DNA of 64,000 nt, taken from contig OX442434.1 in assembly GCA_949361645.1 (NCBI GenBank), positions 6,081,929-6,145,928 on the forward strand, read 5' to 3'. The notes below the pieces were generated by a model. The model did not search any database and was not told the DNA's origin. It worked only from the letters and a program-made list of their open reading frames with translations. A program made the position numbers and the translations under genes. Source of the DNA: Spongilla lacustris (taxonomy: Eukaryota; Porifera; Demospongiae; Spongillida; Spongillidae). Below are positions 37,941 to 53,604 of this stretch, one piece after another; the first letter of the stretch is position 1, and every line of letters begins with the position of its first letter.

Positions 37941-40900
37941 ATGGTAGGCGTGGTGCATTTAGCTCGGAATGACGCTGCTTTTCATATTTAACAGTACGGA
38001 TTTATCTACAACACGCTAAGGTCACTAGTGGTGGACAACTATGGCGAAGAAGCGTGGAATGACGTTTGGTAAGTGAATGCCAAAAAACCACACTACACGT
38101 AGCTGACGTGGGTGGACCGCTATAGTTGAGGTACCTTTTCCCCGCTTGAAAACTTTATATTAAGAAAAGGAAGGAAAAACAAAAAAAAGCGTGCAGTGGC
38201 ATTGGTATTCGTGCACCTACACTGACATGCATTAAGATAGCCTAGCTGGCCTACCGGCACGTACATGTATATCTATTTGTGTTACTGTGTGCAACGTTTT
38301 TATTTCACGTGCTATTTTATATCTGCATTCCTGTGACGACTGCAGTTCAAAAGCGGGTGTTACCACTACTCTTTACCTCGACCATCACTACTACGACGAG
38401 GCCATACTGGCTGCAGTTGGAGCGGCAGCTTCGGAGCTCCTAGGTTAGCCTGCTTTGGGGGCGGGGGGGCGGGGGGGCGGGACAGCACTGCAAGCAAATT
38501 ATGTGCGTAGTTATACGTAGTTATACGTAATTATACGTAGTTTTGTAGTTAGCCTGCTTGCAGTGAGCTTATACTACATGTACGTTCTCCACTTAATTAC
38601 CGATAAAGGCCAGAAAGAAAAAAAAAGGACTTTGACTGCATATGCTTGTTACTTACATCAGTTACATGTAAAGGTATATGAAATTATAATGTATATTTAA
38701 ATCAGGGCCGGTGAGAGCCATAGTGAGGCCCGGGGTAACATATCGTTTTGGGGCCCCGTAGGCCCTGGAAATACGAGCAGGGGGGGTCCCCCTTGAGATT
38801 GGCCAAATACGAGTTTTTATACATCCGTAGTACATGTACGTTTAAACTGCATACCTTGGGGCCCCTTTTATACCTTGGGGCCCCTATTATACCTTGGGGC
38901 CCGGGGTAGGTAACCCCGCTTACCCCCCCCCCCCCCCCCCCTCTCACCAGCCCTGATTTAAATGCCTTGAGCAGTAAACATACAAGAAGTACATATCCGT
39001 ATCTACTTAATCATACATTATCGTTCAAGCCAATGCACTGCCACATTAATACCTTAATATCCATATATGTATATGCCCTAGAATTCCTTATGCCCTGAGG
39101 CACGTGCTTTAAATATTCCCAGGCAAGGGTGCCTGGTACCTAAGGCATCAAACACTCTAGGGTGTGTGTTACTTAAGGCATCAAACACTCTAGGGTGTGT
39201 GTTACCTAAGGCATCAAACAGTGTGCAGAGGCGTAGGAAGGACTTATGAAGTGTAGCGGCTTAGGTTACGTAATAGAAATGGGAGGGGCACAGAGGGGGT
39301 GGGTGCGGGAGGGGGCCGTGTAAGCTCCCCCAGAAGCTTTGCAATTTGTGCAACTTTTATGTTCAAAAGCCATACCAAATTGTTATTTGATCACTTTTCA
39401 TGAACAGCTACACACTGTAGACTTGAATCTTTTATGAAAGAATGCAATTATGTGATCAAACTGTGATATTTCAATGGGTTGACAGAAACTTTCTAAAATT
39501 AGCTTCTCTGCCACTATTTCAATCAAACTGAGCTGATCTGTATAAGATGGTTGTAAATATGCCGAAACAAAAATGCTCGTGGTTAGTGAGGATTAGTGGC
39601 AGGTAAGCTCTCTGATGCTGTAACCCTAACCCTCTCTGATGCTGTAATTTCGGTAGCTGAGCCTGAACAGAATTTGCTCATCGCAGCTATTTAACATGGC
39701 AGCTGCAAAACGTGGTCCGAGCTAGCACGTCGATTGATTTGCTAGCGTGCAATATAGCAACTTTTCAACTGATATCAATCAAAGCTAGTTCCTGCAAAAA
39801 TGTATGCTCTTACATGTATAAGATATACCCCGGACCCTCGAGCGGCTGTTGTACATCAGTACATGTATGCATAGTAACATGAGCTGTTAATACTACATGG
39901 CAATCATTGGAAAAGATAAAAAAGAAAAGATCCACAGAAAAGTGTAGTGGCCATGGCCGCTACGGCCGCCACAGTTCCTACGCCACTGAGGGTGTGTGAT
40001 ACCTGAGGCATCTAACACTCTAGGGTGTGCAGTAAGGATTGAGGCAGTGCTCAGGAATGAAATCAGGTGCAATACAGCATGTGAAAGGTGGACCAGGTGG
40101 CTTTATAATTTAATTGCCCATACCATGGTGATGACCACATTTAGTTAATTAATCGTTAATTCAGGCTATGAAAATGTGTGTTCAATATGGCTTTAGTGTT
40201 CAATGTTATACATCAATTCCTTTAATGTTTCCCATATTTTGAGTGCAATGCATGTTCTCTTGCAAATCAAAGCAAGTCTACTCATTTATGGTTCAAACTT
40301 GTGTGATTATATGCATCCAGGGAAGTAAGTGCTATATAGCATAATTCAGTTTGGTCAATCAGTATGTAAATTGCATCAAATGTAACTATAGCAACGCTGC
40401 TATAGCCTTCACTCAAATATAGATCCTCTTAACCCTTTGTGCTGTTGCCTTCCCTCAAGTACAGATTAACCCTTTGTGATGGTAGCCTTCCCTCAAGTAC
40501 ATATCCTCTTAACCCTTTGTAACCGTACCCTTCCCTCAAGTACAGATTCTAGCCTTTAACCAGCTTTCTATACTTGAAATCCTCTTATCCATCTCCTCCC
40601 CTTACCTGTGATTTTAACATATACCGTTTATACCTACCTGGTAACTGTAAGGCACCCTCTTTAATGTTGCACATTACATGTGCCATACAGGAGTACCCTT
40701 GGAAGATATTCTGGAAAAGTTTGGTGCTCATTTCTTCGAGACTATTAAGAAGTCGGGCCACAGCAGCCTTTTACGGACCCTTGGTCACAACCTCTATGGC
40801 TTCCTCGTTAACCTCGACTCTCTACATGACCACCTGTCATTCACCTACACCCAGATGCAGGCTCCATCTTTCCGGTGTGAGAAGACTCCAAGCAGCCTCC

Positions 40901-43900
40901 GGCTGCACTACTATTCCCAAAGGAAGGGACTGGAGGCCATTGTGATAGGGATTGTGAAGGCCGTGGCCAGAAGCTTCTTTGACCTCGAGGTGGACATTAG
41001 GATGGTGAAGTGTGAGGAGCTGAATGAGGAACTTTCCTACCACTGTGTCTTTGATATTGAGACCAGAGAGAGGTGTAGGACTGAGAAGTGCATGGAACGT
41101 AAGTGATACAATAAAGATGGAGGGACCAGAAGTGGAGCATAGAAGAAATAATCAGATGCTGTGGGATGGGGTGGGATGGGGTGGGATGGGGTGGGATGGG
41201 GTGGTATGGTGGGATGGGGTGGGATGGGGTGGGATGGTGGGATGGTATGGTGTGGGATGGGGTGGTATGCTGTGGGATGGGGTGGGATGGGGTGGGATGG
41301 TGGGATGGTATGGTGTGGGATGGGGTGGTATGGTGTGGGATGGGGTGGGATGGTGTGGGATGGTGGGATGGTATGGTGTGGGATGGGGTGGTATGGTGTG
41401 GGATGGGGTGGGATGGGGTGGGATGGTGGGATGGTATGGTGTGGGATGGGGTGGGATGGTGTGGGATGGGGTGGGATGGTGTGGGATGGGGTGGGATGGT
41501 GTGGGATGGGGTGGGATGGTTGACGATGGTAGGCTGTTGTGAATCCAGGATTCATAAAAGAAGGTTTCTGATCACTCTGCTTGGGGTGAGAGGGTAATCT
41601 TGTGCTCTTCATATAGTACATCATTGCTAATTCAGTTGACAGTGTGAGTGCAGCAAAATAAAACAGTATTCAACCAAGGGCATGATATATTTTTGCAGGT
41701 CTGAGGGGATGTCGGATTGAGATGATGGCCGATGAAGCCACTCCCACTGTTCCCGAGGAGCCTTACATAATTGAAATGGATGACCAGCAATTTGAAGATG
41801 AAGCCTCTGCCCTGCCACCTCTCCCCACTATCTCCAGGAGGGGCAGCTGCATGCTTGGTGCACACCCTTCAGATTGGCCCGTGACTGCACAAATCTTCCA
41901 GAGCTGCTTTCCCTTCCACATCATCTTCGACAAGGACCTCGTGGTCAGGCACATGGGGATCTCCCTGATGAGGCTCTTCCCACAGGCCATAGCAACTGAG
42001 GCACGTATCAATGACTACTTTGAGTTGGCCAGGCCCCCTGTTGACCTGACATATGCCAACATTCGCAGCTATGTCCACAACGTGTTCCTACTGAATATAA
42101 AGGGGAGATACTTAAGGAGAAAGAAAACACTCCAGTTCAGGGGGGAGATGGTGCCACTGTCTGTGCACGACCCAAACTCCTCCATCCTCTTCCTCTCCTC
42201 TCCACGTATTAGCAGTGTGGAGGAGCTGGAGCTTCAAGGCCTCTACATCAGTGACATACCCATCCATGATGTGACCCGTGACCTCATCCTGCTCAATCGG
42301 CACTTCCGTGTTGAGATGAACATTGCAGAGCAGCTTGAGAAGACCAAACACGACCTGGAGATTCAGAAGGCCATCGTGCAGGAGGAGAAGGCACGTGCGG
42401 ACAGATTGCTGCATGCCATGCTGCCCCCCTCCATCGCCAGGGAGCTGACCTCGGGGGCCCAGGCCAGTGCCACGGAATACTCCAGTGTGACCATACTTTT
42501 CAGCGACATTAAAGGCTTCACTACCATCTGCAGCGAATGTGCTCCAATGTGTGTGGTGGGGATGTTGAATAACCTGTACACACGCTTTGACAGCCTCATT
42601 GAGAAGCACAGTGTTTATAAGGTGGGTGCGTCAACTCCAGAGCTTTCCTTGTGGGTTAACACTCTTCTCGTCTCCACCCCCAGGTGGAAACCATAGGGGA
42701 TGCATACATGGTGGCAGCTGGGTTGTTGGACACTTCGGTGAACCATGCAGAGGCTGTAGCCAACATGGCCTTTGGCATGAGGGATGCAGCCAAGTATGTG
42801 GTTAAACCTGCCACTGAGGAACCACTGCAGGTGGGTGATGTGGGGTGTGAGGGGGTGGGTCATGTCGGGTATAAGGCATATCTGGGGGCATATTGGCATG
42901 ATGGGGGGCATATCTGGGGGCATATTGGCATGATGGGGGGCATATCTGGGGGCATATTGGCATGATGGGGGGGCATATCTGGGGGCATATTGGCATGATG
43001 GGGGCATATTGGCATGATGGGGGGGGGCATATCTGGGGGCATATTGGCATGATGGGGGGGCATATCTGGGGGCATATTGGCATGATGGGGGCATATTGGC
43101 ATGATGGGGGGCATATCTGGGGGCATATTGGCATGATGGGGGCATATTGGCATGATGGGGGCATATTGGCATGATGGGGGCATATTGGCATGATGGGGGG
43201 CATATCTGGGGGCATATCGGGGGCATATTGGCATGATATGCCCTGTGAACACTTAGCCTTGCACATACTGCCCCCATATTTCATGTACATGTATAGTTAA
43301 TCAGAGCGGGTCAAGCGGGACCCTGATCCTGAACAAAGCTATTTCACATGATACATGCACACACACATGCACACACACATACATACACACATGTATACTA
43401 CATCCTGCACATATGAAAACACACACACAAACACACACACATATGCACATATCTCACATGCATGCATGTGTATCTGCACACCTACACATACTCCCTCTCA
43501 CAGATAAGGATTGGCATTCATTCAGGACCAGTGGTAGCTGGAGTGGTTGGTCTGAAGATGCCTCGATACTGCCTGTTTGGTGACACAGTCAACACTGCCT
43601 CCAGAATGGAGTCCCACGGAGAGGCAGATAGAGTACACATCAGTGACATCACTTACCAGTGAGCAGACAAATATGTAATGTAGTACGCATTGAAACCAGT
43701 TTAGGACTAGTAATTAACAGCTCCAACTTTTGCCTCTGATCAATCATTCTTGTTCCCTCACTTTTTGAGCCCTAATTTTTTTACTCAAAATATTTTTTAG
43801 CTCTTAAGAGAATGCAAAATTCTGCTAAAGCTTGATGAAACTTGCATTGCTGTAAATTTGACCTAGTTACTATCAATGATGTATCTCTCCACTGGTTAAG

Positions 43901-44559
43901 CCCTTGCCATCAAGTTTACTCCTTCCCTGATGCTATGAAGCCCCCTCATATAGATTAAAGCCCCCCCCCCCCTTGAGTTTAATGTTGTTTTCTGGTCCTC
44001 TAGAATGCTAAGGGGGAAGCCATTTGTATTTTCTGGCCGTGGCAAGATTGGAATCAAAGGTCTGGGAATGAGGGAAACATACTTTATGGAGCCTGCCAGC
44101 AGTTGTGGTGGTGACATGTTGGTTGAAAGTGTAGACCAAAGCTTGCAGCGGGGCTTATATATTGATCATCAAACTGGTGTCAGCCATAGCACCTCATTTT
44201 TAATATGTAGCCAGAACCTCCCACACAATGAAGAATCTTTAAGCAACATTGATGAAGAGAAGATCTTGAAATTCGAACTTGCAAAAACAGATCAATCGAC
44301 ATGCTTGGCACAACCTGCGATATCAACTGAAGAGGACAATATTGTCATCAGGGTGCCTACTGTAGATGAGCCAAAGAGACGTGAGGAGGAGGAAGATGTG
44401 TTCGTCAGCAGCTCTGTTCCCTCGGCTAAGGATACCACTAAGGAATCGTGGACCCAGTCCCCTAAGGGAGTGCAGCTTATGTCACAAGTCTTTGGTTTCC
44501 TCCTCTTGTGCTTTCCTTTAGCTCTGGGCCTGCTCTTAACTGTTCCTAAAGGCTCTTAG
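37941..44559 (+). CDS. Soluble-type guanylate cyclase A with C-terminal tail anchor
   Basis: Eight exons: 37941-37943 (only the ATG), 37995-38068, 38346-38443, 40691-41098, 41699-42621, 42684-42830, 43504-43658, 44004-44559; 2364 nt, 787 aa. Residues 1-185 are an H-NOX haem domain: proximal His104 in SLHDHL, haem-propionate motif Y132-x-S134-x-R136, and Ile142 rather than the Tyr of oxygen-binding bacterial H-NOX. An HNOBA/PAS-like region follows ([13 protein letters not shown]), then a coiled coil (about 420-450) and the cyclase domain. Metal Asp464 and Asp508, guanine-recognising Glu504 and Cys574, and Asn581/Arg585 are all present in one chain. The protein should convert GTP to cGMP, possibly as a homodimer. 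The tail after 603 is unrelated to vertebrate subunits and ends in a hydrophobic segment (about 765-783) four residues from the end. It is paired with an inverted paralogue at 49227-53604. Confidence 0.93.
38703..38955. mobile_element. hAT-type MITE in guanylate cyclase A intron 3
   Basis: The ends are CAGGGCCGGTGAGAG (38703) and CTCTCACCAGCCCTG (to 38955), inverted with one difference. ATTTAAAT flanks both sides (38695-38702, 38956-38963), a perfect 8-bp duplication. The interior contains three copies of TATACCTTGGGGCCCC-like sequence and a poly-C run. Confidence 0.88.
39228..39988. mobile_element. Probable transposon remnant in guanylate cyclase A intron 3
   Basis: The left end CAGAGGCGTAGGAAG at about 39228 is matched by the inverse TTCCTACGCCACTG ending at about 39988. 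The element interrupts a short tandem repeat (GGCATCAAACACTCTAGGGT, 39140-40030). No target duplication is certain and no transposase frame is visible. Confidence 0.55.
41160..41521. repeat. GGGATGGGGT minisatellite in guanylate cyclase A intron 4
   Basis: GTGGGATGGG and GTGGTATG units repeat through 360 bp. G-rich on the transcript strand, open in several frames, and just downstream of the exon 4 donor at 41099. Confidence 0.9.
42845..43240. repeat. Minisatellite in guanylate cyclase A intron 6
   Basis: Units of 18-32 bp built of GCATATCTGGGGGCATATTG and GCATGATGGGG repeat about sixteen times directly after the exon 6 donor (42831). The paralogue carries a different minisatellite at the same place. 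Confidence 0.9.
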
Positions 44560-45169
44560 CACTCTTACATTTGACCAGTATTTTGTTTTTAAACCAATAT
44601 ATTTAATATTTATTATAATTGCATTGTTGTGATGTTTGTGCATAGTTTCACTCACACAAGATTTGTGCTAACTACTTTCTTTTGTTTTAACCTGCACTGT
44701 ATTAGAAGTTGTTTTTACCAATATTTCAAAGTAGTGACCAAATATTTTTGTTACGGACTGTTACAGCTACATGTACTAAATGCTGTCATATTTATGGAAA
44801 CTAATGGGCATTTCCAATCTCGCTTCTTAGTATGGTTCACTGGTACAGCACTAATAAACAACAGCTGGGTATCAATTGCATCGTACATTATTATACATCC
44901 ACATGAATTGTACATTTAGTACTACATATACTGTAATTACAACACTGTGCCTTTAATACTGTTTCATGAAATAAAAAAAACACATCTGGCCAAAATTGCC
45001 CTGGCATTCTGCCTCATGAGGATGAGGCAACTGTACATGGTTGACATAACCTCATTTAGAGGTTGACACAGCTGGGTGGCTGCTTTTTTTTTGACAGGGT
45101 TTAAAATACATGTACTTCGAAAGCTTCATTGCCCCATCCCCCAAACACTTCCATAACCAAAGGGATGCA

Positions 45170-45382
45170 TGACCTTCCTCTAAGGGCACATGACCATCCT
45201 CTAAGGGCACATGACCATCCTCTAAGGGCACATGACCATCCTCTAAGGGCACATGACCATCCTCTAAGGGCACATGACCATCCTCTAAGGGCACATGACC
45301 ATCCTCTAAGGGCACATGACCATCCTCTAAGGGCACATGACCATCCTCTAAGGGCACATGACCATCTTCTAAGGGCACATGC
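45170..45382. repeat. 21-bp minisatellite, ten copies
   Basis: The unit CATGACCATCCTCTAAGGGCA repeats about ten times almost perfectly, 600 bp downstream of guanylate cyclase A. A length divisible by three keeps all frames open. Confidence 0.93.
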
Positions 45383-45689
45383 CTCATCATTTCCTCTTCT
45401 CCCACAATAATACAATAATTATTTTCATATTTAACACTTTGTGAGAACAGCATTGCATTTATTTTGCTAAATATAGGAATAATTATTGTATCTCCATTCA
45501 CTTGTCACTATTGCCTTCAAATCTATATATATACCACTAACTTTCTCAGTGAGAATGTTTTTATATCTTGTTTCATTATTTATTATTTATTTATTAGTGA
45601 CTATATTGCACAGCAGTTCAACTCTCTCCTTAATAGCTGTTCCGTTACTGATAAGGCATACATCAGTGTGGGTTTCTGTTGTTCCTTCC

Positions 45690-46330
45690 CTCAGCTTTGA
45701 CCCGAATGAGCCCCCAAACTGCAGTGAAATGGTGGTTGGGAGTCAATCCCTGGATGGAAATCAAATGGTTTGTCCTCTATGCCCAACTGTGCATTTGACC
45801 CTCTGGGTTACCACTGTGTCACATGCAAAAGAGGAGGTGATGGAACAACCAGGCATAACACTCTTCGCAATGTGGTGTACAACACCTTTCAGCGAGCTGG
45901 TTTGTCTGCACACCTAGAAGTTGGCTGTGGATGGGGACAAGATCATTCCATAACACTCCCAGCAGACATCCTAGCTACCAATTGGGATCAGCTGCCTTTG
46001 ACATTACTGTTGCATCCCTGCTTAATTCTATGTTGGAAGCAGGCATGTACCAGGGTGTTTCAGCTAAGGCAGCTGAGCAGAGGAAACATTCAGAAAATGA
46101 TCCAAGGTGTGCTGAGATGGGCTGGTGATGTATACCGCTAGCAGTGGAGAACTATGGAGCCTGGGGACCAGAGGCACTGAGGGCATTTCAAGGTGGCTTC
46201 TCTGTTAGCCATTTATGATAACACCCCCAAATCAAAAGGGGTAGCACAGTTATATGGCCTCCTTAGCTTGTCATTGATTAGAGCTAAGGCGCGATCGATC
46301 AATCCTGGTCTGCTCCTTTCCTAAAACACT
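45690..46330 (+). pseudogene. Decayed non-LTR retrotransposon 3' fragment
   Basis: Frames joined by shifts contain MVCPLCP, then GYHCVTCKRGGDGTTRHNTL, PADILATNWD and a terminal KMIQGVLRWAGDVYR and PLAVENYGAWG-like region. This is the same zinc-knuckle C-terminal region as the minus-strand fragment at 14930-15560. It has several frameshifts and no catalytic domain. Confidence 0.65.
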
Positions 46331-46589
46331 GCAACAAGAATCTGAACATTCCACTGTACATGTAGTTATTTAATTTATGTGTACAATCATCTCTGTATGC
46401 TTGCAATGTTATGGCATGTTAGTAATATCACAATAAAAGTGATATTGCAACCCATGCATAATCGGTTTGTATGACAAAATCCACCTGTTGCATAGCTATG
46501 GGGAGCTGTTTGTTTCAAAATCCCAAAATATCACCGGCTCTATCTTTATTGGTCTATGAATAACTGCCCGAAACATCGAACGATACTCA

Positions 46590-46910
46590 AACATCGAATG
46601 CATTATTCCGGATTCTCGAGTATCCGGAAGAATTCATTTGATCTTTGTAACCGTCATATACAATAAAGTCGTACGAATATTCCGGATACTCGAGTATCCC
46701 GAATATTTCGTTCGTTGTATACGGAGACCGACATTCATAGCCCAAAGATGTAATGAATTATTCCGGATTCGCGAGTACAGAAGAATTCGTTCGATCTTTT
46801 AAGCCGTTATTCATGGCAGCAAAAGTCGAACGAAATATTCCGGATACTCGAGTATCCCGAATAATGTGTTCGATCTCTCCAGTATATGGAAACCGTCATT
46901 CATACAGTAA
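46590..46910. repeat. Array of about 80-bp units with a palindromic CTCGAG core
   Basis: Four copies of a palindrome close to ATTCCGGATACTCGAGTATC plus CCGAAT occur near 46607, 46680, 46767 and 46843, separated by sequence containing TTCGTTCGATCTTT and AACCGTCATTCATA. The units are thus tandem repeats of roughly 80 bp, each with an internal hairpin. Confidence 0.7.
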
Positions 46911-47021
46911 CGTCCGGATACCGAATTATTGGTCTGGTTCCCAGACCAACATACGGGTAGCGGGTGGAGTATCGTTGTCTTGTCCCCAGACCTATATAGC
47001 GTAACAAGCTGTGTACTGTCA

Positions 47022-47138
47022 CTGCAAGCAGACTATGGTTATACAGTTCGTATAACCATAGTCTGTGGTTATACAGTTCGTATACATGTAACCATAGTCT
47101 GTGGTTATACAGTTCGTATAACCATAGTCTGCTTGCAT
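47022..47138. repeat. Triple hairpin array
   Basis: GACTATGGTTATACAGTTCG followed by its inverse occurs three times head to tail, and the outer flanks (TGCAAGCAG and CTGCTTGCA) are inverted too, so the whole 117 bp is one compound palindrome. Confidence 0.8.
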
Positions 47139-48939
47139 GTTACGTCATGCGGGTCTGGGGATGTGATTAATTTAGAACATGAACTACCTACGATACATTA
47201 TTCTAATTATACGGGAAGTAATATATTCACACACACCCATAGAAATCAGGAGTTTTTGGGCCAGAGACTTAAAAATTTCTGAAGGAGCTTGGCCATCGCC
47301 TTAAACAGACATCAGGAGAGTGCAATTTATATGCTACAAAGGCTATCAGTTGCAGTACAACGAGGGCCAGGATGCAGTGGAAGACTTTTTTTTTCTGTAA
47401 CTTCTTTACATGTATATTGTATGGGTTGCCTCATTTACACTTAATTTCCTTCTAATTAAAACCGCACCCCTTTATGTAAAATATTGCCATGGGAACGCTT
47501 TTAATATAGCTCCTCCATAATACGTGATGATTACGTATATCAGTTACATGCTTGCTTTGTTTGCATACTGATACCTACACGGTGTTCTTCAAGGAAATTC
47601 GGTGTATTTGGCTCTCTTTAAAACCGCTCTAATCCTACTCAGGAAAAAAACTGTCGGAGGTGAAAAAAGGGTTTGTGAACGAGAACAATTATTTGTTCTC
47701 TTAGAGCAAACGGTCTGGAGCAAAACTTGAAAATGACTTCTGGTTCGATAGCAACAAAGAGCTAAACTATCCGTTTCTCGTTACGCGAGTTATACGCGGG
47801 TTACTTTTAAAAATGACTTCACGATACGGTACGGATCCTAGAGTTACTAACGTAACTTGTTACTTAAGTGAGTCTGGGCTACAATGCAGGGAACATAAAA
47901 CATGGAACAAAAGAATACAGATTTGCCAAATAATTAATTTTAACATTACAAATACACAGCATACAGACACAATTGTACACACAAATAACTACGCAGATTC
48001 TTGTTGCAGTGTTTGGGGATAGAAGCGGACTAGAATTGATTGCGCGTCATAAGAGAAGAACTAAGTATATTAGGGAAGTCCTATCCATTAGCCATATCCA
48101 ATGCACTCCTCCATTTAATGCGAGAGCCTCGGAGATATAATTTGGTGGCTCTGATGATGGCAGATAATAAACTAGCCCGCAGCCATCCATCATTCTCCAT
48201 AAGACTTTCCTCCATTTCATGCTATGTGCTCAGAAAATATAATGAATTCACCATTAGTCCCGTACCCAGGCCTATGACATAGAGTTGTAAGAAGCCATGC
48301 TATCACATTCTATCTTATGGCGGTAGTATAAATTCGTCACAGCTGCGGACGATTACATCATCGCAGTTGGGTTCGTAAAACAATGACGAATTTTTACTAT
48401 AACAGTTACAGTAAGCTCTGAATCACAATGTAACATTTTAGTATTACACCATAATTTGAGGTTATATACCTTGTATTTTTATACATATATACAAATGTTC
48501 AAGCTAAAGCTGTTCACACACCAAGACCCCTAACTAGGATGGCTCAAGCAATGGACCGAGTCAGTTAGATCCAGTATAAAGGAGAAGACAAAACATTCTC
48601 TGACTTCAGCATCAAAGGCTGTCAAAGGGTCAAAAGGCCAGGCTTGGGAGTGTACTCCTTGCAAGATGTACCAGCTTGCAAAAGGCACCACACATACGAA
48701 GCATATTAAAAGCCACCTGAGGGTCAATGGCTGCAATCATAATAATATATACGCACTGAGCCATCTGACTTCAGTAACACTTCGACGTGTACCTAAGCAT
48801 GCGTTTGCATATTTTTATCACATTTGTTGTCTCGTTGCATTGTGTACATATTTTATTAGTGACGTATTGCCACCTCAGCACGGTTCTGATGCGTTAAAAT
48901 TCACGAGCCCTCCTGGCTCAATTGGCCTCCTCTTGACTT

Positions 48940-48943
<4 letters not shown>

Positions 48944-48983
<40 letters not shown>
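48944..48983. repeat. (GT)n microsatellite
   Basis: About 19 GT units, 240 bp downstream of the stop codon of guanylate cyclase B. Confidence 0.9.
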
Positions 48984-48991
<8 letters not shown>

Positions 48992-49226
48992 GGTTTCTGT
49001 TTGGATGTGTGTGTGCATTTTGTAAAATGATTTCGATCATCGTGATTCATAACTGCTGTGACACAGAAGTCGAGAGGATATCTGTATTCAAAAAATAATA
49101 ACCATTCTGAGTTGCACTTATTAAGAAAATTGCAATGCACGTGACATACACACACATACCACAACACACATTGGTTTTTAAAAACATATTTTGATAGAGC
49201 AACACTTCAATAGAAGAGTTGGAGGT

Positions 49227-52200
49227 TCAACTGATGATACACTTGTTATGTTTCCTCTTCTTCTTCCCCTTCGCACCAGAGTGGCTCTCCGCCTCTTCAC
49301 CCTCACTTGGGAATGTACCCTCAGTCTCCACACCATTTTGGGCCCCCGCTGAGACACACAAGGGAACAGCACTCCCTGTCAGAACGACACCCTTCTTAGC
49401 CCACTGCTCCTCCTCCTCCTCACGCCTCTTCAGCTCATCTGAGGTGGGCACCCTGATGACAATGCTGTCCTCTTCTGTCGTCACTTGTGACAGTGGCATT
49501 GTTGTGGCAGATTGGCAACTCAAAAGGTTAACTTTCCCTTCTGAAACACTGCCTAATGTTGTTGCATTGTGAGAAACAATTGAAGCACTTGGCTTCAACT
49601 GGACAATCTGGTTGTATCTGACAAAAGAACTACTACGAATGAATTCCATTTGTCGTTCGACAGGTAAGCTTGACTGCAGGCTACTGTCAGCTCTTTCAAC
49701 CATAATTGTTTTAACGCCATCGAATCCATTGGCTGGCTCTATAAAGTAGGTTTCCCTCAGCCCCAGACCTTTCACTTCGATTTTGCCACGGCTGTAAAAT
49801 ACAAATGGCTTCTTTCTCAGCATCCTAGAGGACCAAAAATACTATAATCTTCATGGGAAGAGTAACAGACATCATTAGTTGTAGGGGCCAGGCCTCACTA
49901 ATGATAGGGGCCAGGCCTCACTAATGATAGGGGCCAGGCCTTACTAATGATGGGGGCCAGGCCTCACTAATGATGGGGGCCAGGGCTCACTAATGATGGG
50001 GGCCAGGCTCATTAATGGTGGGGGCCAGGCCTCACTAATAATGGGGGCCAGGCCTCACTAATGATAGGGGCCAGGGCTCACTAATGATGGGAGCCAGGCT
50101 CATTAATGGTGGGGGTCAGGCTTCACTAATGATGGGGGCCAGGCCTCATTAATGATGGGGGCCAGGCCTCATTAATGGTGGGGGCCAGGCCTCATTAATG
50201 TGGTGGGTGTGTTTTCCAACATCCCAGATATGGGCAATGCATCCTAGCAATGCATGTACATCTTAACAGGCTCCATTAACAAGGCCACGCCTCCACCATT
50301 AGTGAGGCCTGACCCCCACCATGGCAGTCCCCAGACTCAAAGAGCATATATGCTCTGGGACAGTACACCTTATTGGAACTGCCCCCCCCCCCCCCCCCCC
50401 CCATCTCCTACATTAGTGGGTCCTGCCCTTAAAGTGAGTCTTAATAACGTCTGCTCACTGGTAAGTGATGTCACTGATGTGTACTCTATCTGCCTCTCCG
50501 TGGGACTCCATTCTGGAGGCAGTGTTGACTGTGTCACCAAACAGGCAGTATCGAGGCATCTTCAGACCAACCACTCCAGCTACCACTGGTCCTGAATGAA
50601 TGCCAATCCTTATCTGTGAGAGGGAGTATGTGTAGGTGTGCAGATACACATGCATGCATGTGAGATATGTGCATGTGGTGTGTGTGTGAATGGTATGTGT
50701 GTGTGAATGTGGTGTTCTACTGCGCCAAACCAGAGTCACCAGGTGTAGGGGATGTGGCTTGTGTATAGCCATGTGCCACTACACCATCACCTGGTGACCA
50801 CATCATCCCACAATACTACAACCAGATGAACCACAAGGGGCTGTGTGATGCAGCCAACCAAATGAAGGCTAGCCTGCATTAGAAGCCATCTCACACCACA
50901 ATCAAGTCACTGTCACACCACACATGACCCACCCTACACTCACCCTCACACCACACATGACCCACCCTACAGTCACCCTCACACCACACATGACCCCCTA
51001 CAGTCACCCTCACACCACACATCACCCACCTACAGTCACCCTCACACCACACATGACCACCTACAGTCACCCTCACACCACACATTACCCACCTACAGTC
51101 ACCCTCACTCCCCACATCACTCACCTGCAGTGGTTCCTCAGTGGCAGGTTTAACCACATACTTGGCTGCATCCCTCATGCCAAAGGCCATGTTGGCTACA
51201 GCCTCTGCATGGTTCACTGAAGTGTCCAACAACCCAGCTGCCACCATGTATGCATCCCCTATGGTTTCCACCTGGGGGCGAAGACGAGAAGAGTGTTAAC
51301 CCACGAGGAAAGCTCTGGAGTTGACACACCCACCTTATAAACATTGTGCTTCTCAATGAGGCTGTCAAAGCGTGTGTACAGGTTATTCAACATCCCCACC
51401 ACACACATTGGAGCACATTCACTGCAGATGGTAGTGAAGCCTTTGATGTCGCTGAAAAGTATGGTCACACCGGAGTATTCCGTGGCACTGGCCTGGGCCC
51501 CCGAGGTCAGCTCCCTGGCGATGGAGGGGGGCAGCATGGCATGCAGCAATCTGTCTGCACGTGCCTTCTCCTCCTGCACGATGGCCTTCTGAATCTCCAG
51601 GTCGTGTTTGGTCTTCTCAAGCTGCTCTGCAATGTTCATCTCAACACGGAAGTGCCGATTGAGCAGGATGAGGTCACGGGTCACATCATGGATGGGTATG
51701 TCACTGATATAGAGGCCTTGAAGCTCCAGCTCCTCCACACTGCTAATACGTGGAGAGGAGAGAAAGAGGATGGAGGAGTTTGGGTCGTGCACAGACAGTG
51801 GCACCATCTGTCCCCTAAAATGGAGTGTTTCATCTCCCCTGCTGTTCCTCGAGTGAGCCTCCTTCATATTTAGTATGAACACGTTATGGACATAGCTTCG
51901 AATGTTGGCATATGTCAGGTCAACAGGGGGCCTGGCCAACTCAAAGTAGTCATTGATAAGTGCCTCAGTTGCTATGGCCCGTGGGAAGAGCCTCATCAGG
52001 GAGATCCCCATGTGCCTGACCACAAGGTCCTTGTCGAAGATGATGTGGAAGGGAAAGCAGCTCTGGAAGATTTGTGCAGTCACGGGCCAATCTGAAGGGT
52101 GCGCCCCAAGCATGCAGCTGCCCCTCCTGGAGGCACCCCTTGACATCCCTGGGAGGGTAGGAAGGAGGGAAGGGGGGAGGCGCAATGGTGGACGGAGCCT

Positions 52201-53604
52201 AGTATTGAGGGCTGTTCTCAGCTGCTCAACAGCTTCGCTCTCAGGCTGGGGAACGTTCACTACTATGGGCATGGGGGTACATTCGGGTTCCTCTCTCAAA
52301 GTGGAAGGGAAATCAGGGTTAATCCCATCAGTGACGATCTGTCCAGTGCTGGATGACCTCAACCCGCCAGGAAACTGAGCCGACATGAGGTCAGCCTCAC
52401 TGCCTACCCTCTCCATGTCTCCCTCCAACTGGTCCTCTACTTTAACTCCAAGACCTGAGAATAAAACAGAACTCATGCCATCTAATACCTAATCTCTCCC
52501 TCACCTCCTGCATCTCCAGTACCTAACCTCTCCCTTAACCTCCTCTATCCTTTCTCTCATTCCTTCCCATCCAATCTCCCCTTTGGCTCTTGGCTCCCCC
52601 TTCCTACTCCTATCCCCAGATCCTCACTTCTCTCCTCTCCTATTCCCCCTTCCCCCCCCCCCCCCCCCCCACCTTATTGTATCACTTACGTTCCATGCAC
52701 TTCTCATTCCTACACATCTCTCTGGTCTCAATATCAAAGACACAGTGGTAGGAAAGTTTCTCATTCAGCTCCTCACACTTCACCATCCTAATGTCCACCT
52801 CGAGGTCAAAGAAGCTTCTGGCCACGGCCTTCACAATCCCTATCACAATGGCCTCCAGTCCCTTCCTTTGGGAATAGTAGTGCAGCCGGAGGCTGCTTGG
52901 AGTCTTCTCACACCGGAAAGATGGAGCCTGCATCTGGGTGTAGGTGAATGACAGGTGGTCATGTAGAGAGTCGAGGTTAACGAGGAAGCCATAGAGGTTG
53001 TGACCAAGGGTCCGTAAAAGGCTGCTGTGGCCCGACTTCTTAATAGTCTCGAAGAAATGAGCACCAAACTTTTCCAGAATATCTTCCAAGGGTACTCCTG
53101 TATGGCACATGTAATGTGCAACATTTAAGAGGGTGCCTTACAGTTACCAGGCAACGCAGTACATATAAGTGTGTTATGGTAAGAAAAATATACAAAACTG
53201 GGGACTTGCATAGTAATTAGAGAACGAATAAAATGAATAAATCCTACAGCTCCGCACCAGCACCGCGGGCTAACCTAGGAGCTCCGAAGCTGCCGCTCCA
53301 ACTGCAGCCAGTATGGCCTCGTCGTAGTAGTGATGGTCGAGGTAAAGAGTAGTGGTAACACCCGCTTTTGAACTGCAGTGCAGTCGAATTTTTTGAGTAA
53401 AATTAAAGCAAAAAGTAAATAAAAATGAATTACATAACACTCTGTATCCACATTCACTTACCAAACGTCATTCCACGCTTCTTCGCCATACTTGTCCACC
53501 ACTAGTGACCTTAGCGTGTTGTAGATAAATCCGTACTGGAGGAGAGAGGGATGACACCGCGTGTACGTACAATGACAAAAGTACTGTGTCTGTGTCCTCA
53601 CCAT
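49227..53604 (-). CDS. Soluble-type guanylate cyclase B with polybasic CaaX tail
   Basis: Eight exons: 53602-53604 (only the ATG), 53462-53535, 53275-53372, 52690-53097, 51334-52454, 51125-51271, 50459-50613, 49227-49824; 2604 nt, 867 aa. All internal exons except the fifth have exactly the same lengths as in copy A, and the H-NOX and cyclase exons are nearly identical at DNA level. Haem motifs and catalytic residues match (Asp530, Glu570, Asp574, Cys640, Asn647, Arg651). The fifth exon has about 66 more linker residues before [10 protein letters not shown]. The last exon keeps only its start (GKI-VKGLG-RETYF-EPA) and then diverges, ending in a Lys/Arg-rich run and C-I-I-S, a CaaX prenylation box at residues 864-867. 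Vertebrate beta-2 subunits are known to end in a CaaX box as well, so this copy may resemble the ancestral state. Confidence 0.93.
49875..50200. repeat. 23-bp minisatellite in guanylate cyclase B intron 7
   Basis: The unit GGGGGCCAGGCCTCACTAATGAT repeats about fourteen times with single-base variants, adjacent to the last exon. A poly-C run follows at 50383-50402. Confidence 0.9.
50920..51124. repeat. About 31-bp minisatellite in guanylate cyclase B intron 6
   Basis: Read on minus, the unit GTGGGTCATGTGTGGTGTGA plus GGGTGACTGTAG repeats about six times starting exactly at the exon 6 donor. Each unit begins with a donor-like TAG/GTGGGT, so the splice donor region itself has been tandemly duplicated. 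Confidence 0.85.

Follow-up and report, generated by a model that had tools for sequence, protein, structure and literature searches.

The beta-2 subunits of the haem-type, or soluble, guanylate cyclases are described, in excerpts of one published account, as having additional C-terminal sequence that serves isoprenylation (PMC8200204). A paper on ctenophores counts three soluble cyclases in sponges and in humans, and the excerpted text makes no mention of an anchor (PMC10073611), while the placozoan membrane cyclases, again according to an excerpt, have NIT domains between two transmembrane segments (PMC7400543). A tail-anchored haem-type guanylate cyclase was not found by title in the literature searched, which consisted mainly of open-access journal papers. 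The window considered here, a stretch of 64,000 nucleotides from the freshwater sponge Spongilla lacustris (assembly GCA_949361645.1, contig OX442434.1, positions 6,081,929 to 6,145,928 of the forward strand), contains two beta-2-like cyclase genes, termed A and B, which end differently. A CaaX end is already known for beta-2; what appears to be new is a paralogue with a putative tail anchor, and comparison with related sequences backs both tails.

Two Cyclases with Different Tails

Gene A (37941..44559, forward strand) and gene B (49227..53604, reverse strand) are complete and convergent, with an identical eight-exon layout and a spacer of about 4.7 kb from one stop codon to the other. GT-AG introns are used throughout in both, the frame of A is open, and the products are beta-2-like haem guanylate cyclases of 787 (A) and 867 (B) residues. 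The exons of A lie at 37941-37943, 37995-38068, 38346-38443, 40691-41098, 41699-42621, 42684-42830, 43504-43658 and 44004-44559, and those of B at 53604-53602, 53535-53462, 53372-53275, 53097-52690, 52454-51334, 51271-51125, 50613-50459 and 49824-49227. The first base of the ATG is 37941 in A and 53604 in B; exon 1 of each encodes the initial M alone, and the protein continues in the next exon with YGFIYNTL.

Both proteins have the Pfam domains HNOB, HNOBA and Guanylate_cyc in this order, all above cut-off (residues 2-162, 255-444 and 452-632 in A; 2-162, 318-510 and 518-698 in B). The proximal haem histidine, His104, and the YxSxR motif (Y132/S134/R136) were located by motif in both. In the same way, a complete catalytic set was placed on a single chain of each (D464, E504, D508, C574, N581 and R585 in A; D530, E570, D574, C640, N647 and R651 in B), making both homodimer-capable by sequence; these are presumably the residues that bind guanine and metal and stabilise the transition state. 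Among solved structures the best match to B is soluble guanylate cyclase beta-1 (6jt0_B). The named proteins that score best with B as query are beta-2-like subunits from starfish, amphioxus, acorn worms and fish, all of which are outscored by the proteins P0001 and P0002, which match B at 50% identity across 82% and 81% of its length. Judged from the sequence of its core, and not from its tail, A is classed as a beta-2-like paralogue.

Exon 8 of A (44004..44559, +) encodes the end of the catalytic domain, a probably disordered linker and the predicted tail anchor; exon 8 of B (49227..49824, −) encodes the end of the catalytic domain, a linker, a polybasic run and a CaaX box. The initial annotation had proposed that A ends in a hydrophobic segment of about 19 residues followed by PKGS, and B in a Lys/Arg-rich run followed by CIIS. 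The gene model and hydropathy confirm the former, and the complete gene model the latter. In A the 19-residue segment (residues 765-783; 44488..44544, +) is followed by PKGS and the stop codon and there is no CaaX box, while in B the polybasic run, CIIS and stop occupy 49227..49271 (−), an end to which those of P0121, P0123, P0001 and P0002 are comparable. It had also been claimed that both tails come from the same last exon, which is so, and that they can be aligned over only some 25 residues, which falls short: residues 603-634 are identical at 25 of 32 positions, and a second, later block (TEED.IVIRVPT.DE.KRREEEE) aligns as well.

Within the last 45 residues, the best 19-residue window has a mean Kyte-Doolittle (KD) hydropathy of 2.55 in A, with four residues after it, and of 0.07 in B. 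The 12 most hydrophobic windows of A all begin at residues 758-769, and by hydropathy scan alone the protein has neither an N-terminal signal peptide nor another transmembrane segment. When the residues of A exon 8 were shuffled, 10 of 100,000 permutations reached the observed hydropathy. An AlphaFold2 model of this exon, made from a four-row alignment, has a mean predicted local distance difference test (pLDDT) score of 50, with residues 33-151 nearly all below 50, and a C-terminal helix at 154-178, where the score by block is 58 (151-160), 82 (161-170) and 78 (171-180). The model suggests that the linker before the anchor, about 120 residues long, is probably disordered. The two ends are best read as those of a tail-anchored protein in A and of a farnesylated, K-Ras-like protein in B.

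Both Tails Recur in Related Sequences

A search with both last exons returned five proteins and a search with three A-type exons also returned five, their union being six different proteins. One of these, P0122, is A's own exon. The other five are three of A type (P0124, P0125 and P0126) and two of B type (P0121 and P0123). Orthologues conserving neither tail, which the initial annotation had named as evidence against itself, are thus not what was found: both tails recur. The A-type proteins end in SQVFGFILLCFPFTLGLLLTISEGS (P0124), GLTFALFLLCLPITLGLFLTFSKVS (P0125) and GLIFGLFLLCFPITLGLFLTFSSKAS (P0126), and the B-type proteins in CIIS (P0121) and KRRRSKKCLIT (P0123).

The position of the stop codon is common to all four A-type proteins, A included, and the residues that follow the anchor in them are PKGS, SEGS, TFSKVS and TFSSKAS. 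The mean KD of the anchor is 2.55 in A, 2.42 in P0124, 2.31 in P0125 and 2.41 in P0126, compared with a tail mean of at most 0.07 in B, P0121, P0123, P0001 and P0002. All four anchor blocks contain a stretch of at least 19 residues without charge, and their summed Hessa-type values range from -1.23 to -1.77. A and P0124 are identical at 20 of 27 positions in the anchor block and at 57 of 149 elsewhere in the exon. Across the four proteins, the block has 27 gap-free columns and 11 of them do not vary, as against 13 of 107 before it. It is the recurrence in P0124, P0125 and P0126 that decides the matter, and on this ground the hydrophobic end of A is judged to be real.

In the 248.6-Mb genome of the window, exon 8 matched only A and B among the best candidates scored, and P0123-P0126 therefore most likely come from other genomes. 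P0121 and B disagree at only 5 residues out of 198, and P0121 may be from the same species as B.

Which End Is Older

Beta-2-like relatives numbered 433, and the 120 of these that were listed are mostly vertebrate and so not independent. Among the 120, a Cxxx end is present in 96, the final residue being L in 77, F in 8, S in 4, V in 3, I in 3 and T in 1. P0001 (KRQKCVIS) and P0002 (RQKCTVS) are two of the four with a final S. The remaining 24 are without Cxxx, and some of them look, by eye, as if they might be truncated or odd gene models. No anchor as strong as that of A occurs among the 120 listed relatives; P0100 alone exceeds a KD of 1.6 in a 19-residue window of its final 60 residues (1.69). 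Besides A and B, the genome encodes a third haem-type cyclase, L016 (G000:C18:356500-366000), which has a long last exon that ends AAAGQSCVLM at about L016:7110, CVLM being a CaaX box without an adjoining basic run. Because most of the listed relatives end in Cxxx and the third cyclase ends in CVLM, the CaaX end is likely to be the ancestral state and the anchor the newer one. Together with the recurrent tails, these comparisons support the suggestion, made when the locus was first annotated, that one paralogue has kept a CaaX end and the other has acquired a tail anchor in its place.

An origin of the anchor in a repeat or another gene of the genome was considered and rejected. In searches where the best candidates alone were scored, DNA from 44360-44620 matched only itself, and the protein encoded by A exon 8 matched only A and B at expect values up to 10.

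A Proposed Division of One Enzyme between Two Membranes

It is probable, with a fair margin for error, that A and B are old duplicates with cores kept alike by gene conversion, B being farnesylated at its CaaX box and A tail-anchored, with the endoplasmic reticulum (ER) as its membrane, so that one enzyme is placed on two membranes. On this account, B would keep the ancestral end: CIIS would be farnesylated, as its X residue is S, and lipid and charge would, as in K-Ras4B, hold the enzyme at the plasma membrane. In A, a transmembrane helix of about 19-21 residues, which ends four residues short of the stop, would have taken the place of the ancestral end. Insertion would follow translation, the ER being the most likely destination and GET/TRC40 the most likely route, and the enzyme would project into the cytosol from its tether of about 120 residues. 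Gene conversion would keep the cores for sensing and catalysis alike but would not reach the linker and the exon of the tail.

If the genome lacks an alpha subunit, A and B may each self-pair, pair with one another or pair with L016, the subunit encoded on C18. Each should be able to work as a homodimer, since each has the full set of guanine and metal residues and the searches detected no alpha subunit. Cells that make both proteins could form A/B pairs, and such a dimer would be expected on the membrane of A; because the dimer surfaces of A and B are nearly the same, the split between compartments suggested in the initial annotation would need separate expression or preferential self-pairing. 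We infer prenylation, membrane insertion, organelle, dimer state, sensing of nitric oxide (NO), output of cyclic GMP (cGMP), splicing and expression from the sequence.

The alternative that survives best, though it is rather doubtful, is that the anchor is real and its target is not the ER as such but the mitochondria, the peroxisomes or, reached through the secretory pathway, the plasma membrane. Tail-anchored proteins are known to reach all of these membranes, and sequence alone does not settle the target. Mitochondrial and peroxisomal anchors, however, tend to be moderately hydrophobic and to be followed by basic residues, and the four A-type anchors are unlike these in their flanks and in their mean KD of 2.31-2.55. 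The segment of A is very hydrophobic and its C-terminal flank is near neutral, and by such rules A is more likely to be in the ER or secretory system than in mitochondria, the two locations that the initial annotation had offered for it.

Shared Cores and Probable Gene Conversion

The cores had been called nearly identical in the initial annotation, a description that is correct but understates the mosaic. The H-NOX exons carry no synonymous difference (exons 1-4: 0 of 137 synonymous sites, with four nonsynonymous differences), whereas the synonymous divergence (dS) of the aligned codons of exon 8 is between 0.62 and about 2, the upper value resting on an uncertain alignment. Exon 7 has no difference at all, exon 6 has a single difference among its 36 synonymous sites, and the HNOBA-to-cyclase part of exon 5 has a dS of 0.08. 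The start of exon 5 encodes an A-specific linker between the H-NOX and HNOBA domains (41699..41831, +), and here dS is 1.65 over 62 aligned codons. Synonymous differences at 0 of 137 sites in exons 1-4 versus about 67 of 111 in the aligned part of exon 8 give a Fisher p of 4.6e-31 on rounded counts.

BLASTN gives a near-identical tract around exon 4 of A (40637..41124, +; 98.6% to B 53151-52665), which extends 54 and 26 bases into the introns, and another covering most of A exon 5, intron 5 and exon 6 (41832..42853, +; 95.5% to B 52132-51102). The match in exon 5 starts at 41832, after the linker, which lies outside it. The near-identical tracts end 3 to 85 bases from the exons, with the exception of the short intron 5, which is inside one tract; the other six of the seven introns are without A-B alignment except for short stretches beside exons. 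H-NOX exons free of synonymous change, alongside a diverged exon 8, point to gene conversion. The pattern fits an old duplication whose exons were homogenised by conversion, with the linker and tail spared, and we infer that selection may actively protect the two tails.

It has to be asked whether A could be a recent copy of B that acquired a foreign last exon, with no gene conversion involved, an explanation that would account for the near identity of the cores and is nevertheless quite unlikely. A recent copy would share its introns, and six of seven fail to align beyond the exon-adjacent stretches; moreover, exon 5 begins with a stretch as diverged as exon 8, and exon 8 of A is homologous to that of B, with no other match among the best candidates scored in the genome.

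Evidence Weighing against the Anchored Form of A

Several observations tell against the reading of A and B as a tail-anchored and a farnesylated form of one conversion-maintained enzyme. Of 367 open reading frames (ORFs) in the window, taken mechanically from stop to stop and at least 60 codons long, 11 equal the terminal hydropathy of A, so that the segment by itself is weak evidence, and there is a central proline inside the anchor. P0125 and P0126 each agree with A at 13 of 27 anchor positions, compared with 46 of 113 and 49 of 124, respectively, in the rest of the exon, so that in these two the block appears only slightly better kept than its surroundings. P0121 and P0123-P0126 are known from the last exon alone, and each of P0124-P0126 is presumed to belong to a full cyclase. 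In an exon tree built without the tails, the anchor-bearing rows do not form one clade (18% of 200 bootstrap trees); this tree does not establish a single origin of the anchor. Splicing from a GT at 44381 to a TTTAG at 44517-44521 would excise 141 bases in frame, and with them most of the anchor.

Dimerisation raises a further difficulty. HNOBA and HNOB each match the same three genes only, namely A, B and the C18 gene L016. HNOBA is also present in alpha subunits, and its restriction to three genes suggests that an alpha subunit is absent; none was detected, in exon-wise profile searches that give lower bounds. Published excerpts describe the soluble forms as heterodimers, both possible homodimers being inactive in vitro (PMC8200204, PMC11432225). 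A and B would be expected to differ from these inactive homodimers because each has the full catalytic set.

The possible splice bears on another explanation, in which the end of A is misread, non-coding, pyrimidine-rich DNA or a further exon has been missed, and the main product of A ends otherwise. The DNA beneath the hydrophobic segment is indeed rich in pyrimidines, with a would-be 3' splice site ending TTTAG. A scan for donors over 44004-44700 scores the GT at 44381 at 1.9 and that at 44060 at 0.3, and the former is within the range of the weaker real donors of A (the seven score 1.7, 1.7 and 2.6, and the other four 4.1-5.9); its join to 44521 keeps the frame. The ORFs of equal hydropathy also fit this explanation, as does an out-of-frame CAFL-stop at 44507-44521. 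Against it, the reading frame of P0124-P0126 runs on through the would-be splice site, encodes a similar peptide at the corresponding position and stops at the same point, and the GTGAGG of the candidate donor is also found within the coding sequence of B. For these two reasons the unspliced exon 8 is taken as the main form of A. In addition, CaaX-like matches over 43659-49226 in three frames number four, none of which, by eye, follows a Lys/Arg run like that of B. A mistaken end is thus improbable, marginally more so than a recent copying of B, although an isoform of A without the anchor may exist.

The out-of-frame motif merits a note of its own. It lies in the +1 frame of A exon 8 (44507-44521, +), which ends SSSCAFL-stop; it is one of the four CaaX-like matches just counted, and chance could account for it. 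An origin of the anchor by frameshift from an older CaaX frame of this kind was rejected, as A and P0124 align in their present frame upstream of the anchor.

Finally, since membrane location is a prediction from sequence, the helix of A might stay out of the membrane and pack on the enzyme, make oligomers or act as a degradation signal, but this is very unlikely given the uncharged stretch and Hessa-type sums of all four sequences and a helix placed at the extreme C-terminal end, following a linker that is probably disordered.

Other Features of the Locus and Genome

Two AATAAA signals lie 3' of A, at 44853 and 44970. By eye, introns 4 and 6 of A contain minisatellite-like arrays (41150-41530, GGGATGGGGT-type, and 42885-43230, GGGGGCATATTGGCATGAT-type), and introns 4 and 6 of B hold sequence other than these arrays. 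Elsewhere in the genome, contig G000:C18 carries two NO synthase loci, at about 5.205 Mb and 7.991 Mb, whose exon series match. A receptor-type guanylate cyclase candidate, L017 (G000:C24:3568500-3576000), has cyclase-domain matches and was noted by eye from cyclase exons 3' of a kinase-like stretch.

Comparison with Known Systems

The effect of cGMP depends on its site of production, and the soluble cyclases are usually treated as cytosolic. If the proposed arrangement is true, one NO signal would be read out as cGMP on two membranes, and any A/B dimer would combine a lipid with a transmembrane anchor in a single enzyme. Nearly the same core at different membrane addresses would give a direct route to the effect of location on NO-cGMP signalling. 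The locus would also offer a natural example of paralogues in which a membrane helix has taken the place of a lipid tail and, with its converted core and spared tails, a good test case for selection against conversion. More tentatively, and with the balance tipped slightly against it, A may represent an old class of tail-anchored haem-type cyclases, recurring in diverged relatives and having a farnesylated twin, in which conversion keeps the core and selection keeps the labels.

The nearest described enzymes are the deuterostome GUCY1B2 proteins, which, like B, have H-NOX, HNOBA and cyclase domains and a long C-terminal extension with a CaaX box. A differs from them in having a transmembrane segment and no CaaX box, and B in ending CxxS after a polybasic run, whereas the listed Cxxx relatives mostly end in L (77 of 96). 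With the farnesylated tail of the K-Ras4B type, B shares the polybasic run and CIIS, although it is a cyclase and not a GTPase, and its prenylation is predicted. With tail-anchored proteins such as the VAMP-type SNAREs and Miro GTPases, A shares a lone hydrophobic segment not more than 25 residues from the C terminus, a cytosolic domain that comes first, and the lack of any other segment as hydrophobic. The same choice between lipid and anchor is seen in other families, in the contrasts of Ykt6 with VAMP and of Ras with Miro. The receptor guanylate cyclases are membrane-tethered, as A is predicted to be, and have catalytic residues compatible with homodimers; however, they span the membrane before their kinase-like and cyclase domains, whereas A would be anchored behind its cyclase domain and has a haem domain.

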